Shown piece by piece: positions 13,564 through 21,152 of a stretch of 35,695 nucleotides of DNA. The notes below the pieces were generated by a model, which saw only the letters and a program-made list of their open reading frames with translations, did no database searches and had not been told where the DNA came from. The DNA lies in IMG/VR virus record IMGVR_UViG_3300043449_000807, positions 1 to 35,695 of that record, one strand, 5' to 3'. The position numbers were made by a program, and so were the translations under genes. Origin of the DNA: a virus. Each line of letters starts with the position of its first letter. Within the stretch, counting starts at the first letter, position 1.

Positions 13564-13905
13564 ATGTTTAGAATTGCGTGCTTTTGCGCTTTTACGCTTG
13601 TTGCAAGCGATGCGTTTGCGTGCATGGGATCGTTCGACAAGCTAACTGCCTATCTAAACTCAGATAAAACGTCGAACGAACCAGCGTGCGCAGATAATGC
13701 AAGTGACTGGCAAAAAGACCTAAAAGCAGAGCGTGACAAATCACGCGAAGAACTGAAGCAGTCTTCACGCGAACTTGACGCAAAATTGCAGGCTCAACGC
13801 GATTACGACCAGCGCGATAGGCTCGCGGCTGACGAAGACCGCCGGCAGAGCATGATCCAAGGCCAGATGAACCAACTCAACATGAACACAGTGCCGCGTT
13901 ACTGA
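13564..13905 (+). CDS. Exported coiled-coil protein, moron candidate
   Basis: A 113-residue gene on the opposite strand to all its neighbours. ATG 13564 has AGGAG at 13552-13556. The N terminus (FRIACFCAFTLVASDAFA) is a signal peptide with cleavage at AFA/C19, or a weak lipobox at AFAC. The mature protein has a short Cys-containing region, then a highly charged helix (KAERDKSREELKQSSRELDA) predicting a coiled coil in the periplasm. The base composition looks more AT-rich than flanking genes. It starts divergently from the propeller gene and its stop overlaps the end of the 2417-codon gene. No family is recognised. It is a likely lysogenic-conversion gene. Confidence 0.7.
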   Translation: MFRIACFCAFTLVASDAFACMGSFDKLTAYLNSDKTSNEPACADNASDWQKDLKAERDKSREELKQSSRELDAKLQAQRDYDQRDRLAADEDRRQSMIQGQMNQLNMNTVPRY

Positions 13906-16900
13906 CGTTCTAATCCTTCGTCGCTGTAACGGTTCATCTTCAAGGTAATGGCGTCGTGGATTAGCTGCGGATATTTTTGCAGCATAGTCTCACGCGCCGC
14001 CTTGCGGGTCACGTCAAACACCTTCTCGATCACGTCCATCTTCTGAAAGTCTGGCATCCGCTCATAGTCCGGCGAGTTGATGACCTGATCGAGTTGCATC
14101 TTTGTCAGACGGCCGGCGATACGCGCATAGTCGTCCAGTTGTTCCGGCGACAGTTCGACGTTCCTGATCTTCTTGTCCACCGGCGACTTGCGGACGTTCA
14201 GGCGATACATCTCGCGATTGACCGGATCGTTGTTCTCCGGGCTCTGATAGATCGCCGTGCCGGCTGTAAGCTGTTTGTTGGCGATAGGCTCGCCCCACAA
14301 GTCGCGGCGCGGAGCCAGATCGCCGGCCGACCACGGATACTTCGACTTGAAGGCGTCCATGATGGTGCGCGCTTGGCGCGAATAAGGATCGGTCGCGCGC
14401 GTGATTTGCGACATGCCAACTGACGCCGGCGCAAAAGACGACAGGAAGTTTCTGGCCCAAGATGCGCCATACTGCTTCGGGTTTTCAATCGCCCGGAACA
14501 GTTCGGACGGGCCGCGCATAAAGCTCTCTTCAAGGATGTTGTGAGAAAACGCTTCCAGCAGCGCCGCGCCGGCTTCCGCCATCTCTTCCTTCGTGGCTTT
14601 CTCAGCCACCTTATACATGTCAGCCGCGACGCCGATCAGCAGACCGAGCGCGCCGAGGCGGTGATAGCTATACCAGGTGTCGCCAATCTTGACCGAGTAG
14701 GGCTGAATGCCGAGGCGTTCCCAATTACCCTTTTCCTCGCGATCCTTTGGTCCGCCGCCTGTGATCGAACCTTCCATGACGTAGCCGGCGACAGCCGCCG
14801 AGACGGCCGTTCCCAGCATGATCCGGCCCATCGCCTTGTCCTGGGCGTAGGTGCCGTTCTTGCCAGACAGGTCAGCGCGCATGTCAGGCGAGAACAGCGC
14901 CAGTGGCGTGCGCTGGCCAAGGGACTGCTCGATGACGTTGCCGGTGATGTGGACGAACGGATCAATAAACTTGAGCCACGGAACGCCGAGAACCTTCGTA
15001 TTCGTCAGGCGCGCCAGGTTGCGGGTGAACTCGCCGCCTTGGCCCATCATCGTGCCTTCGGTCGCCGCTTCTCCCGCGCGCTTAATCATCTCCAGGTCAG
15101 GGTTCTTTTTAAGCTCAGCGACGCGCTGGGCGAACGCATCGCCTGTCAGACCTTCCGCCGACGCGCGGCGATAGGCTTCCGCATTCAATTCCATCGCGTA
15201 GAAGTTGACGCGGTGGAAGGCGTGGATCGCCTGAATGAAGCGGCCCGGCACGCGGATCGCAGAGCCAAACGGCACAACCGGCACGCCCTTGTAGGCGATG
15301 TCGGGAATGACGCCGAGCGGCGACGTGTAAAGGCTCCACAGCGGAGCGCCATCGACGCCCTTGTCGAGCAACTGACCGTAAGCGATCACCGCGTCCTTCA
15401 TGCCACGGATCGCGCCGAACATGTCCGGCATGACGCGCGACAGCTTGTAGGTCGGGTCCATCCGGTCGGGCTTGGCAAATTGCTGACCAGGCATAAGGCC
15501 CGGCAGGTTGCGCATCGTCTCGCCTGGCAGCAGCGTTGTAACGCCAGTCCTGAATGAACCAGCGGCGGCCTTGAGCGCCGGCGCGAAGCCTTCGCCAAAG
15601 CCTTTGACTTGCGCCATCACCTCACCGAAATGCACCATGTCGGCGGCTTCGGTCTTGCGGCCGGCGGCCTGCATGGCCTTCCCGACAGCAGCGCGAGCGA
15701 CTGTCTCAGGTATAGCCCGATACATCGCAAGCAGATCGTTACCGACCATGTAGGTGGCGTGAGTAACTGGACCCGAGATAAGGTTGTTGATCCAGTATTC
15801 CAGAATATAGCGATGGAAACCGGGTCGATCCGAGTTGCGCAGGAAATTAGCCGCTGCTTCGGGATCGTCTAATTTTGACAGAAGATCGAGTTCAACTCTA
15901 GTCTGAAATAGCGTCCGGCCCGTATTCTCTTGAAAGAGCTTGTTTACGGCCTTGTAGTCCTTCGATCCGCTGATGTCGCGGAAGGAACGGCCGGCGCGGC
16001 CCCACTCAGCCGTCGCGCCTGACACGGTTTTCTGGATGTTGACCAGCCGGTCGCGCTCGACCGCGTAATCACGCATGGCCTGCCAGTCGCCTTCGCCGGC
16101 GGCTTTAGCGGCCTTGGCAAGCTCGACCACCTTGGCAAGCTGCTTCTGGAAGAGAAGGCGCATGGCCATGATCTCTTCCGCGTTATAGGCGCTGCCCTTG
16201 GCCCACTTGTCCACCATGCGCCACGCGCCTTCGTCGCCAATGGCGGTCGCAAGGTCATGGACCTGGCCATCCGTCACGACGCCACGGCGGTCGCCAATGA
16301 AGCCGTCGTTCTGCGCCGCGACCTCTCGGGCCGCTTCACGAAGGTCTTCCTCGTTGGTGATGTTCTCTAAGCGGATGTTGCCGGCTTTATCGACGAACTT
16401 GCCTTCTTTGGACGCGAAGCTGGCGCGCTCTCTTGGGACATATCCATTCCCATCGTTTCCTGATGATGCGCCAAAGCCTTCCGCCGCATTTTCACCGTTG
16501 CCGCCGCGCTGCGCGCCGCCACTCTGGCCGCCTGCGCCGCTTCCGGCCCTAGCTCCTTGTCCGCCGCGATCCTCTGCCATGCCTCGGCCGTCTGCATCGC
16601 TTCCTCCAAGCTCGCGGACGGATCGTCCATTTCGTTCGGCTGCGGCTGCAAGTTCATTCTTCACCTCGGCAGGAAGTTCTTTGACAAATTGGGCGCGCTC
16701 GTTGTCAGCCCTGTCAGCTTTTGCGCCGGCTTCGCGGTGCGTCGTTTTGACGGCTTCGGCCTCATGGACAGCGCCCAGGCTGCGGCTCGTCTTGATCTCG
16801 CCGGCGACAACCGTGCGGCGCGGCTCGGCCGACAACAGCCGGTCGAACACGGAACGGATTTCAGGCGTCAGTTCCGGGATGCCGTTGCGCTTGAGGCCAC

Positions 16901-19900
16901 GGATCGACTGATAGACCTCGCGCAGCCAGTTCGTGAAGCGCTCAAATACGCTGGCAAGCTCCTTCGACGGTGCAACGCCATCGTAGATGTAGCGCTCAAA
17001 GCCTTTGGCGAACTTCTCATGCTGCTTGCGCGTGAACTCGGCCTGACCGCGTTTCCAGCCCACCCAATCCTTGACCGTCTCCAGATCGGCTTTGACCTGG
17101 GCGGGGGCTTCGCCATGCGCGGCGTCGCGAGTCAGTTCTTCAAGATACTGGTGGCCGCTCTCATGGATGATCGAGGACGGATCGGCCTTCTTGCCCAGCC
17201 AGATTTCGCGCGTGCGGGTGTTGTAAGCGCCTAGGCGTTCTTCATTTCCTCGGCGCTGTTCGAAGACCTCACCGTTTCCTCGCCCGCTTTCAGGCTGTCC
17301 AGCGCCCGGCTCTCCAGGTCCGCCCCCGACTTCTCCAGCTCCTTGTCGCCCTGCTTCTGTCCCGCCAGCTTCATTGCGCGACCCATCGCCAGCGCTGCGG
17401 GGCTCGAAAAGGTTTGCCTGATCGGTTGATCCGCCATTCTCTTTGCCTTTCTGTGCCGCAAGGGCTTGAACGTCTTCCGACCGAACCGGCGTCAGGTCGA
17501 AGGCCAAGCCTTCTTGGGCAGAAACCTTGCGCGCTTCCTGCGCATAAAAATTGACCCGCTCTGCGATGTCGGCAGCGCTTGCGGCGCGGCGGCCGGTCGC
17601 ATTGTAGAACATCCGCATCCAGGCTTCGACGGTCGGATTGAGCCTATCGAAAGCGTCTTGCTGCGCCAAGAAGCTATCCAGCTTGACGCCCTTGGAGCGA
17701 AGATCGGCCGTGCGCTTGACCGCTTCCATAAGCTCCGGCGTCAGGTCCATGTCAGCGCGGACCAGGCCGGCTTCCACATCTGCGCGCAGCTTCGCCCATT
17801 TCGGGGCAGCCGATGTCAGCGCATTCGAGATCGACTTGACCTCATCGCTGGTCGCTTCCGCGATCCGGGCCATCAGGCTTGCGTCGCCGTAGGCTTTAGC
17901 CAGGACGGCGTTACGGACGCGCGCCAGACCTTCCGATGACAGGCCGCCTTCGGCCGTCGTCATCATGCCTTGCTCGGACTGCGGCAGACCCTTCACAAAC
18001 GCCTGGACGAAGCCACGGTTCTTGATCGCTCCAAGGTCGTCCGGGTTCTGGACGAGATCGAGCGTTTCCGGCGTCAGCATCCGCGCGTCGGCCATAGCGC
18101 GCTCGCTGGCGGACATAGCCAGTGTGGCGGATTGGTTGGCCTCGACGGTGAACGCCTTGCGCTGTTCCGGCGTCATTTCCGTCACGCGCTGACGGATAAG
18201 GACCGGCTCTTTGTATTTCGATACGTCAATGCCCTGGCTGGCGATCCAATCGCGGTAGCGCTGGGCAGCCTGACCGTTCTGACGGTATGCCTCGCGTATC
18301 GCCATGACGCGACCGTTGCCGCTTTCGACCATGTTGTCAGGGCCGACGATAGGAGCGCCACGGTCGGCCTCAGAGGACGAGCCAAGGCGGTTGGGATCAA
18401 GCCGAGTGGCAATGTCCCTGATCTGACCCTGGCTGGCTGCACGGTCGCGATTGCGCGGCTGGAGCGCCTTGTCGTAGCCGGCGTCGGATGACGTGAGTAG
18501 GTCGGCGGCTTCCACCACCATCGGCTTCACATCGACGGCCGTGCCATTCGCGGTCGTGACGCGCTGAACAATCGGCGTGGGCTCGTCGGGCTGGGCGGCG
18601 GGGGCCGGCTCACGCAGGTTTTCTGTGGCGGAAAGGAAGTCAACCTTTCCTTCTTTGGAGACGCCTTTATGCGGCTCGGAAATGTATCTCTGACTTTCGC
18701 CGTTGCTGTCCGGCTTGCCAAGAAGGGTGAGCGATCCGTCCTCGTTCTTGCTGACGACAAGCAGGTCTTTAACGAACCCAACGTCAACAATGTTGCCCGG
18801 CGTCCAGTCCTTCTTCGCTCTAGCGCGATTGGGGCTGCCGCTGCGCAAGCGATCCCATTTTACAAAACCAGGTGATTGGCCGGCTTCTTGAGCGTTTGCG
18901 GCGAAGCGCTGCCATTCAGAGCCCATATCAGGCGCGACTTCCTGCGCAACCGGATATTCGTCCGACATCGCTTCCTGGCGCATTTTCTCGCGCAGGGCGG
19001 CCATGTCAGGTGCTTCTGGCAGGCGGCCGGGAACTGTCTCCTTCGGAGCGCCTTCCTGCTTCTCCATCAAACCGCGAACGACTTCGGCCAGCTTGGCGTC
19101 AATCGGCTCGCCATTAATCGTGATCTTCTCGCCTTCGGCCTTCGCCGCCGGCGCGACGTGCTCGCCAAGCATTTGATCGAAGACGTTGCGGCGCAGGTTC
19201 AGCGGGAGCGCTTTGTCCTTCTTGCGCGCGGCAACCAGCTTGACGCTGTTGTCGTCAATCGCCTCGATTTTGTAGCGCGTATCGTTCAGCGTGATCGTGT
19301 CGCCAGCCTTCGGGCCGGCGGGCTCCGGCGCAGGCGGTTCGGCGGCCGGCGCAGGGGTGGCCTCCGGGGCGGGTTGCGCGCCAGCTTCCGGGGCAAACGA
19401 GACTTCGCCGGTGACTTCCGCAGGAGCTTGGGCGGCATTTTCTGTAGTAACAGGCGCGGCCGGCAACTGACCCGGCTCGACCTTCTTGGCGGGCTCCCAC
19501 GACCTGATCTGCGAACCTTCGGCGTGGTAAAGCTCCAGCGGCGAACCGAGCTTGCCTTCAAAGCGACTGGCGCGGCTGATGTAGCGGCTGGCCGTAAGCT
19601 CACCGTATGCTTTCGCCTCTTCCTCCGGCCGGCCAGCCTCAAGGGCGCGCTTCGTAGCTTCCGCTGCAATGGCCTTGCGGTCGGCGGTGTAATCGGGCTG
19701 TGCGGCCTCCCCAGTGGCGGCTTCCGCAGGCTTCGGCTCCATGACGAAATCGCCACGGCCAATGCCAATGGCGGCCCGGCGCTTGGCTTCTGTCAGCTTC
19801 GGAGCCAGGTCACGCAGCGCTTCGTCGGCCTTCACCAATTCTTGACGATGGCGCGCGGTAAGGTCGTTGTCAGCGCCTTCCGTTTCGGCCGCTTCCATCG

Positions 19901-21152
19901 GGCGGTTTTCGAGCGACGAAATCTCGTTCTGGATCGCGCGAATGGACTGACGCATGACGCGCGCTTCGCGTCCGCCTTCGTATCCGTTCCGGCCTTTGAC
20001 GAACTCGCTGTAGTCGCGCTGCGCCTGGACAAGCTCTTTCGTCAATTCGCCAACGCGCTTCGGGCTTCCGTTGTTGATCTCGTCGATGGCCGCGCGGGCT
20101 TCGTCCTTGATCGCTGTCAGGCGGTCGTATTCGTCAAAAAGCTCAGGCTCCATCTTGCGAGCCGTGTCGGTGACTTGCTCGGGGCCAGGCAGACGCGGGC
20201 CTTGAACTTCGGCTTCCTCGTCGCGGGCATATTGATGTGAGGCTTCCTTGGCGACCTGGTTGGCTTCGGCGTCGCCTTGGAAGGTGTCTTCGTTATGGCC
20301 GGGACCAAAGATGCCTAGGTCGCGCGCCTGGCCAAGCGTGTATCGAGCGCCGTTCGAACCCGTCTCGATGACGGCCGTGCCGTATTTGTTCTGATGCGGA
20401 AACATCGTGCCGAACGCGGTCGCGATGGCGACTTTGTTCCAGTCCACGTTCCCGTGATACGCCTCGTTACCGAACTCCCAGCCGCCCATGACGGTGCCAG
20501 AGAACCCGCGCTGGAGCAGATCGGAGCCGACGCGCTTGCTGATCGTCGCAGCCATCGGTGCGCCGCCAGGGGCCGCCCACGGACGCGCCGTGACAAGGAA
20601 TGGCACAAGGCCGCCGATCTGCGCGGCGTAAGGATGTCTGGCCTCGTCAATGATCGCCTGATCTTCGTCCAGGCCCATCTTTTTCTTGATGTCGTCCGGG
20701 ACATAGGACAGGGCGAAGTCCTGCACGGCCGAGCCGAACATGCCGCCGGCTGCGCCGCCCACAAGACCGCCCACGAAGCCGCCCGCGACAGACGCCAGAG
20801 GACCGCCGGCTGCGCCAAGCTCAGCGCCCAAGGTCGCGCCAAAACCAATGGCCGGCAAAGCGGTTGCAGTCGGGACAATGCCTTTCTCCATGCCGCGCGC
20901 GAACGCGCCGGACGCAGAGCTTTCGTCATCGTCCTTCGACGTGTTGAACTGCGAAAAGGGATTTAACTCGTCGTCTTTCGACGTATTGAACTCGGCAAAC
21001 GGATTGTCGCTGACAGGCGCGGCTGGCTGGCTGACAGCCTGCGTCGGCGGGGCCGGCAGCGGATCGGGCGCGTAAGGAGACGCTTCCTGCGTCGGTTCCG
21101 TCACCGTCTCATCGGCCGGGGCGTCAGGAAGCTGGTCTTCTTCTTCGATCAT
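13899..21152 (-). CDS. Giant polyvalent internal virion protein (DdrB/ParB-like and HExxH domains)
   Basis: A 2417-residue protein in the position of T7 gene 16. The N terminus (1-90) is disordered with a duplicated NPFxxFNTSKDD motif; 91-148 is Gly/Ala-rich and membrane-like. A small domain near 620-680 contains DTRYKIEAIDDNSVKLV. Residues about 870-1080 resemble the DdrB/ParB-like nuclease-superfamily domain (IVGPDNMVESGNGRVMAIRE). HESGH at 1330-1334 is a HExxH metallopeptidase motif within a zincin-like domain. Residues 1820-2200 hold hydrophobic stretches and a WYSYHRLGALGLLIG region found in large podovirus internal proteins. It is probably ejected with DNA to form the injection channel and protect the genome. 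ATG 21152 overlaps the upstream stop (ATGA). Two small frames are nested in it. Confidence 0.8.
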   Translation of the reverse strand: MIEEEDQLPDAPADETVTEPTQEASPYAPDPLPAPPTQAVSQPAAPVSDNPFAEFNTSKDDELNPFSQFNTSKDDDESSASGAFARGMEKGIVPTATALPAIGFGATLGAELGAAGGPLASVAGGFVGGLVGGAAGGMFGSAVQDFALSYVPDDIKKKMGLDEDQAIIDEARHPYAAQIGGLVPFLVTARPWAAPGGAPMAATISKRVGSDLLQRGFSGTVMGGWEFGNEAYHGNVDWNKVAIATAFGTMFPHQNKYGTAVIETGSNGARYTLGQARDLGIFGPGHNEDTFQGDAEANQVAKEASHQYARDEEAEVQGPRLPGPEQVTDTARKMEPELFDEYDRLTAIKDEARAAIDEINNGSPKRVGELTKELVQAQRDYSEFVKGRNGYEGGREARVMRQSIRAIQNEISSLENRPMEAAETEGADNDLTARHRQELVKADEALRDLAPKLTEAKRRAAIGIGRGDFVMEPKPAEAATGEAAQPDYTADRKAIAAEATKRALEAGRPEEEAKAYGELTASRYISRASRFEGKLGSPLELYHAEGSQIRSWEPAKKVEPGQLPAAPVTTENAAQAPAEVTGEVSFAPEAGAQPAPEATPAPAAEPPAPEPAGPKAGDTITLNDTRYKIEAIDDNSVKLVAARKKDKALPLNLRRNVFDQMLGEHVAPAAKAEGEKITINGEPIDAKLAEVVRGLMEKQEGAPKETVPGRLPEAPDMAALREKMRQEAMSDEYPVAQEVAPDMGSEWQRFAANAQEAGQSPGFVKWDRLRSGSPNRARAKKDWTPGNIVDVGFVKDLLVVSKNEDGSLTLLGKPDSNGESQRYISEPHKGVSKEGKVDFLSATENLREPAPAAQPDEPTPIVQRVTTANGTAVDVKPMVVEAADLLTSSDAGYDKALQPRNRDRAASQGQIRDIATRLDPNRLGSSSEADRGAPIVGPDNMVESGNGRVMAIREAYRQNGQAAQRYRDWIASQGIDVSKYKEPVLIRQRVTEMTPEQRKAFTVEANQSATLAMSASERAMADARMLTPETLDLVQNPDDLGAIKNRGFVQAFVKGLPQSEQGMMTTAEGGLSSEGLARVRNAVLAKAYGDASLMARIAEATSDEVKSISNALTSAAPKWAKLRADVEAGLVRADMDLTPELMEAVKRTADLRSKGVKLDSFLAQQDAFDRLNPTVEAWMRMFYNATGRRAASAADIAERVNFYAQEARKVSAQEGLAFDLTPVRSEDVQALAAQKGKENGGSTDQANLFEPRSAGDGSRNEAGGTEAGRQGAGEVGGGPGEPGAGQPESGRGNGEVFEQRRGNEERLGAYNTRTREIWLGKKADPSSIIHESGHQYLEELTRDAAHGEAPAQVKADLETVKDWVGWKRGQAEFTRKQHEKFAKGFERYIYDGVAPSKELASVFERFTNWLREVYQSIRGLKRNGIPELTPEIRSVFDRLLSAEPRRTVVAGEIKTSRSLGAVHEAEAVKTTHREAGAKADRADNERAQFVKELPAEVKNELAAAAERNGRSVRELGGSDADGRGMAEDRGGQGARAGSGAGGQSGGAQRGGNGENAAEGFGASSGNDGNGYVPRERASFASKEGKFVDKAGNIRLENITNEEDLREAAREVAAQNDGFIGDRRGVVTDGQVHDLATAIGDEGAWRMVDKWAKGSAYNAEEIMAMRLLFQKQLAKVVELAKAAKAAGEGDWQAMRDYAVERDRLVNIQKTVSGATAEWGRAGRSFRDISGSKDYKAVNKLFQENTGRTLFQTRVELDLLSKLDDPEAAANFLRNSDRPGFHRYILEYWINNLISGPVTHATYMVGNDLLAMYRAIPETVARAAVGKAMQAAGRKTEAADMVHFGEVMAQVKGFGEGFAPALKAAAGSFRTGVTTLLPGETMRNLPGLMPGQQFAKPDRMDPTYKLSRVMPDMFGAIRGMKDAVIAYGQLLDKGVDGAPLWSLYTSPLGVIPDIAYKGVPVVPFGSAIRVPGRFIQAIHAFHRVNFYAMELNAEAYRRASAEGLTGDAFAQRVAELKKNPDLEMIKRAGEAATEGTMMGQGGEFTRNLARLTNTKVLGVPWLKFIDPFVHITGNVIEQSLGQRTPLALFSPDMRADLSGKNGTYAQDKAMGRIMLGTAVSAAVAGYVMEGSITGGGPKDREEKGNWERLGIQPYSVKIGDTWYSYHRLGALGLLIGVAADMYKVAEKATKEEMAEAGAALLEAFSHNILEESFMRGPSELFRAIENPKQYGASWARNFLSSFAPASVGMSQITRATDPYSRQARTIMDAFKSKYPWSAGDLAPRRDLWGEPIANKQLTAGTAIYQSPENNDPVNREMYRLNVRKSPVDKKIRNVELSPEQLDDYARIAGRLTKMQLDQVINSPDYERMPDFQKMDVIEKVFDVTRKAARETMLQKYPQLIHDAITLKMNRYSDEGLERQ
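16367..16657 (-). CDS. Candidate nested gene, 96 residues, +1 frame of the giant gene
   Basis: Same strand as the 2417-codon gene, shifted +1. ATG 16657 follows GAGGTGA, complementary to the 16S tail. The product is protein-like: an acidic N terminus (EMDDPSASLEEAMQTAEAWQ), a helical middle (IAADKELGPEAAQAARVAAR) and a basic end. Here the giant protein's own frame is only a Gly/Ser/Asp-rich linker. By my hand count over 16511-16606, third positions are G or C in 27 of 32 nested codons but in about 16 of 30 host-frame codons, as if the nested frame were the one under selection. Function unknown. Confidence 0.5.
   Translation of the reverse strand: MNLQPQPNEMDDPSASLEEAMQTAEAWQRIAADKELGPEAAQAARVAARSAAATVKMRRKALAHHQETMGMDMSQESAPASRPKKASSSIKPATSA
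17231..17437 (-). CDS. Candidate nested gene, 68 residues, +1 frame of the giant gene
   Basis: In the same +1 frame as the other nested candidate. ATG 17437 has AAAGG with an ideal 8-base spacer. The product (MADQPIRQTFSSPAALAMGR, then a Lys/Glu/Asp-rich helical stretch with GDKELEKSGADLESRALDSL) has normal soluble-protein composition, unlike the Arg/Pro/Ser-rich shadows elsewhere in this gene. The host frame here is a Gly/Glu-rich linker (about residues 1239-1307), just before the HESGH domain. Function unknown. Confidence 0.45.
   Translation of the reverse strand: MADQPIRQTFSSPAALAMGRAMKLAGQKQGDKELEKSGADLESRALDSLKAGEETVRSSNSAEEMKNA

Follow-up and report, generated by a model that had tools for sequence, protein, structure and literature searches.

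The window, by which we mean the whole 35,695-base stretch of DNA analysed here, is a virus record with podovirus-like gene content. Its structural cluster encodes a terminase, a head-tail adaptor, a major head protein, a tail protein, a lysozyme-like protein, a giant protein and a tail fibre. The gene for the giant protein is the host of the two nested reading frames described below, and its relevant parts are as follows.

13899-21152, minus strand: host gene, a polyvalent internal-virion-type protein of 2417 aa (Pfam, PHROG, podovirus structural cluster)
17466-18566, minus strand: DdrB-like ParB domain region of the host, residues ~863-1229, with ORF-A behind it
16746-17222, minus strand: zincin metallopeptidase domain of the host, residues ~1311-1469, with ORF-B behind it
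17151-17165, minus strand: HESGH motif of the host

The DdrB-like ParB domain was recognised by Pfam (PF18763, ddrB-ParB; 117 bits, E 6.5e-34), and the PHROG match to internal virion proteins covers residues 1969-2362. For the zincin-like HExxH signature, HESGH was found inside a domain that is conserved among other phage giant proteins; none of the Pfam zincin models matched the host protein. By these matches, the host gene is of the DdrB/polyvalent kind and of the internal virion or ejection type. It shares the DdrB-ParB domain, the zincin-like metallopeptidase and the virion context with P1 DdrB and the polyvalent proteins (PMC5512222).

Two small open reading frames lie on the same strand inside this gene, each preceded by a Shine-Dalgarno (SD)-like site.

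17231-17437, minus strand: ORF-A, nested +1-frame gene of 68 aa (relatives, predicted structure)
17446-17450, minus strand: AAAGG, SD-like site of ORF-A, spacer 8
16367-16657, minus strand: ORF-B, nested +1-frame gene of 96 aa (relatives, predicted structure)
16661-16667, minus strand: GAGGTGA, SD-like site of ORF-B, 3 bases 5' of the ATG

The initial annotation had proposed that both are overprinted genes, and the coordinates, lengths, starts, +1 frame and SD sites it gave were all verified in the sequence. Both ATG codons sit at host codon position 2, which places the ORFs in the +1 frame, and the TGA within GAGGTGA closes the nested frame in phase with ORF-B, 3 nt 5' of its ATG. Over 16511-16606, we counted G or C at the third position in 27 of 32 nested codons, the same as the earlier count, and in 18 of 31 host codons, a small correction to the earlier figure of about 16 of 30. 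A weak Arc-like ribbon-helix-helix match (E 0.014) was also seen in the host frame at ~16617-16703 (residues 1484-1512), overlapping the start of ORF-B. The host region 3' of ORF-B gave no match in phage records.

We asked how much of this could arise by chance. Both ORFs lie in Gly-rich linkers, and GGN codons read in the +1 frame could by themselves give open, Ala/Glu-rich frames that encode nothing. When synonymous codons of the host were shuffled, the ORF-A frame stayed open in 97% of the shuffles and the ORF-B frame in 84%, so openness judged by codon permutation is uninformative, and the original argument from openness and composition is no proof of nested genes. Similarly, SD-led +1 ORFs of at least 45 aa across 61 giant genes showed only a slight excess (36 against a null of 30, sd 5). 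Arg-poor ORFs of this kind behaved differently, with 24 in the same genes against a null mean of 7.4 and a maximum of 14, at an Arg threshold that was set after earlier ORF lists had been seen. A preference for the +1 over the +2 frame was rejected as a gene signal, being mostly compositional and present in the null as well.

A stronger test is whether the nested proteins show conservation in excess of that imposed by the host protein. Relatives of both ORFs were gathered by domain similarity of the giant proteins and not by the nested frames, which therefore provide an independent read-out. The closest host relative (L002/L020), 71% identical over 370 aa, has at the corresponding position a +1-frame ORF that shares 62% identity with ORF-A over 50 aa (31/50), compared with 21/49 in the host frame there. 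Further hosts came from scans with the ParB domain, which brought the nested relatives of ORF-A to 18. In all 19 hosts including the window, the ORF is read in the +1 frame and follows the ParB domain immediately, and the host frame stays open throughout. More generally, nested identity exceeded host identity in 143 of 171 ORF-A pairs, whereas in the ParB domain, our negative control, the +1 frame beat the host frame in 0 of 45 pairs (0.30 vs. 0.61). Leave-one-out profiles scored 16-73 bits in the nine members tested against shuffle maxima of 9-30 bits, and in each of these nine none of 500 host-preserving shuffles attained the real score. A profile built from the window clade recognised seven of eight members of the second clade, with 0 of 300 shuffles each. 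The reverse test was weaker, with L022 and L127 failing and L037 and L026 marginal, and support for L024, L025 and L112 as clade members is weak.

Synonymous-site conservation, a check proposed with the initial annotation, pointed the same way. Among seven hosts of the second clade, divergence at fourfold sites fell to 0.14-0.21 only over ORF-A and was ~0.5 elsewhere in the 2500-column gene, while host positions 1 and 2 over ORF-A diverged more than in the neighbouring ParB domain. The codon-position pattern is thus reversed where the host's synonymous sites are at their minimum.

The ORF-B family was missed by a scan of viral contigs with ORF-B alone and emerged only through the zincin domain. 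Hosts of this domain carry +1-frame ORFs ~530 nt behind the domain start, and ORF-B matched ORFs at this position in 13 contigs (phmmer E 1.7e-8 to 5e-3). Iterating the search gave 26 distinct members including the window, and the 25 relatives all sit at the same position within an uninterrupted giant gene and are read in its +1 frame. Even the nearest are only ~35-44% identical to ORF-B in the nested core. Nonetheless, with leave-one-out profiles all 26 members scored above every one of 200 host-preserving shuffles, and the nested proteins were more alike than the host proteins in 244 of 275 pairs; whether the host's synonymous sites vary less was assessed for this family by codon-position pattern and pairwise identities only.

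Judged by comparison with their relatives, ORF-A and ORF-B clearly exceed chance, and each ORF belongs by these profiles to a family of its own that was previously unrecognised. The overprinted-gene reading of both is thus supported by family-level conservation beyond host constraint. Frames that are merely open by virtue of the Gly codons would leave this conservation, the reversed codon-position pattern, the Arg-poor excess and the clean ParB control unaccounted for; the family-level tests already refute that explanation for both ORFs, and we regard it as highly improbable.

Outside these host-guided sets, tBLASTn of both nested peptides against phage records, a comparison put forward with the initial annotation, returned no match for either. 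Further members of both families had no match in phages, and ORF-A had none in plasmids. In one Bradyrhizobium-family genome (L224), an ORF-A relative was seen at L221:1501-1674, in an apparent prophage remnant ~620 bases from a tRNA-Lys gene, where the open stretch of the host-like frame around it spans only 229 codons. This match is convincing, unlike those at L220, L222 and L223 in Bradyrhizobium-family genomes.

We then compared the start signals across both families. The start codon is ATG in 18 of 19 ORF-A members and 23 of 26 ORF-B members. An SD of at least 4 nt precedes 18 of 19 and 25 of 26, respectively, against a background of ~25%; the ORF-B value is biased upward because its start sites were chosen partly with the SD in view. 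Relatives with nested stops or lost SD sites, which had been named as evidence against nested genes, were not what we found: the frames, starts and SD-like sites are kept, so that both families retain initiation signals of their own.

These signals also bear on how the nested frames would be read. One could imagine that ribosomes shift into the +1 frame in a programmed manner, so that the product would be a shortened ParB-containing protein carrying a different tail and no separate small protein would be made, and in the window the nested frame is indeed open for 54 nt 5' of the ORF-A ATG. In ORF-B of the window and several relatives, however, the nested frame has a stop codon 3 nt ahead of the start, and in L024 and L025 such a stop is found 6 nt ahead. 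Such stops favour internal initiation over a programmed frameshift, and frameshifting does not account for the retained ATG and SD-like sites; we therefore give it very little weight. Most likely, as these signals suggest, ORF-A and ORF-B are translated by internal initiation, each at its own SD and ATG on what would be the late structural mRNA.

A drop in variation at fourfold sites alone could stem from any nucleotide constraint, including a non-coding element that acts within the linker as RNA or DNA. Against this, the variation is codon-periodic in the nested frame, with position 2 the least variable, the nested protein sequence is preserved from clade to clade, and confident helical-hairpin models were obtained for both families. 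An element of this kind is the least probable of the explanations we considered, with hardly any likelihood left to it.

The distribution of the two families suggested that each ORF is tied to one domain of the host. All 19 ORF-A hosts, which were selected by their ParB domain, have the ORF behind their DdrB-ParB domain, and all 26 ORF-B hosts, which were selected by their zincin domain, have the ORF behind that domain; given this selection, it is chiefly the negative side of the association that is firm. Among the ORF-A hosts, this zincin type occurs only in the window host, and the giant proteins of L037 and L091 have no HExxH at all and terminate shortly beyond ORF-A. Conversely, among the ORF-B hosts the ParB domain occurs only in the window host, and ORF-A was not found when sought in 80 zincin loci. 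Outside the window each ORF thus occurs without the other type of domain, and therefore each travels with one domain module; on this distribution, the window giant gene is a combination of two domain-plus-nested-gene modules. Taken with the conservation described above, ORF-A and ORF-B are very probably real, conserved and module-tied overprinted genes, a grading that concerns the genes and not their roles. A broader scheme is also conceivable, although we consider it rather unlikely: the giant polyvalent ejection proteins would be assembled in evolution from shuffled two-layer modules, in which an enzyme domain is joined to a linker whose +1 frame encodes a small dedicated partner of that domain (inhibitor or chaperone), and recombination would move domain and partner jointly.

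We next considered the Gly-rich linkers, which the initial annotation had attributed to constraint by the nested genes. In the window, Gly makes up 28% of host residues under ORF-A and 25% under ORF-B. Across the hosts, its content under nested ORFs is ~19-20% against 8-9% elsewhere, and it was higher under the nested ORF in 45 of 45 comparisons; in L070 (Bradyrhizobium), a host relative that carries no nested gene, the linker at this place is not Gly-rich. The association therefore holds, but a nested gene does not by itself produce Gly richness: in the host-like frame, this phage's ordinary genes would encode 8.8% Gly and 17.8% Arg. The Gly richness reflects either joint selection on both frames or an origin of the nested genes inside a linker that was already Gly-rich. 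The host linkers also contain an LF motif (NLFEP, QLSLFGG, PSLFD), at ~17400-17415 in the window and in the same linker of L021, L022, L025 and L026; QLSLF resembles a DNA sliding-clamp binding motif.

Structure prediction gave a two-helix hairpin for both products, with high confidence in the helices (residues 12-29 and 32-50 of ORF-A; 13-32 and 38-73 of ORF-B). Profile comparison showed no match between the two, and we rejected the possibility that they are paralogues. Neither ORF-A, ORF-B nor 19 aligned members of each family matched Pfam or PHROGs, and the ORF-A model had no match at E 0.001 or better in viral and PDB fold libraries.

What the small proteins do is a more tentative matter. 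Helical-hairpin proteins made from the giant protein's own message would bind the domain preceding each of them, as chaperone or inhibitor. That both are dedicated partners of this kind, serving as assembly chaperones or activity inhibitors, is a possibility we favour with reservation, somewhat short of even chances. The initial annotation had suggested both as partners or inhibitors of the HESGH domain. This is unsupported for ORF-A because the ParB domain precedes it in every host and the zincin type accompanies it only in the window. The suggestion stands as a possibility for ORF-B, since the zincin domain precedes it in all hosts. P1 DdrB undergoes proteolytic processing ahead of packaging, with its metallopeptidase domain as the presumed protease (PMC5512222). 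ORF-B could therefore plausibly serve to control the zincin domain while virions assemble and, by analogy, ORF-A may restrain the ParB nuclease domain or help its folding.

Alternatively, the genes may be real while their products are independent small virion proteins, or anti-host proteins that are injected, with no relation to the domain beside them. The linkers would then merely be places that tolerate a second frame, which fits both the location of the nested genes, where the host protein tolerates change, and the occupation of the same linkers by unrelated nested families (TnpV-like, D and E, described below). The constant pairing of family and preceding domain across the ORF-A and ORF-B hosts speaks against independence, and we consider it the less probable account of their roles, though still a serious one. 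If each nested protein does control the neighbouring enzyme domain, this would explain how a nuclease and a protease are carried safely in a virion, and the nested proteins would represent ready-made inhibitors.

Several further nested families were found in host relatives. In four giant genes, the second +1 ORF is related to TnpV; in L022, the match to PF14198 reached 46.2 bits against a cut-off of 27.

L022, 5604-5903: TnpV-related nested ORF
L021, 5679-6002: TnpV-related nested ORF
L023, 6072-6383: TnpV-related nested ORF
L127, 7243-7557: TnpV-related nested ORF

ORF-A and ORF-B, by contrast, have no PF14198 match. Family D occurs in L024-L026, family E in the second clade directly behind ORF-A, and family C 5' of the zincin domain in L140, L141 and L145. 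In L098-L110 and L124 (e.g., L103:6346-6525), a short nested ORF beginning MSEPVDLTGMT... starts right after the ORF-A stop, in an arrangement resembling a nested operon.

Overprinting on the same strand with a start of its own is known from the lysis genes, with E of phiX174 lying in D and Rz1 of lambda in Rz. The nesting seen here differs in that several unrelated families occupy the linkers of one giant ejection-type gene, each of them following a particular domain. P1 offers another likeness, as iddB is an annotated gene inside ddrB; it was rejected as a homologue, lying antisense and inside the ParB-coding part, so that strand and position both differ. The window polyvalent protein carries nested genes, unlike the account given by Iyer et al. 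2017 (PMC5512222); in the main text of that paper, the words 'overlapping' and 'TnpV' do not occur, and 'nested', in the use seen, refers to a protein fold.

Nested small genes thus seem to occur regularly in giant phage genes of this very common kind, and annotation would be missing a whole layer of phage proteins. The hosts of ORF-A and ORF-B offer a natural system for studying the co-evolution of two reading frames. Limnohabitans phage DC33 (L078) and ctQRb9 (L080) carry two to three SD-led, Arg-poor +1 ORFs 5' of the zincin domain, all unannotated in their records. The DC33 record (PQ492659.1) is 39 kb long and contains a giant polyvalent gene, and its Inoviridae label looks wrong.
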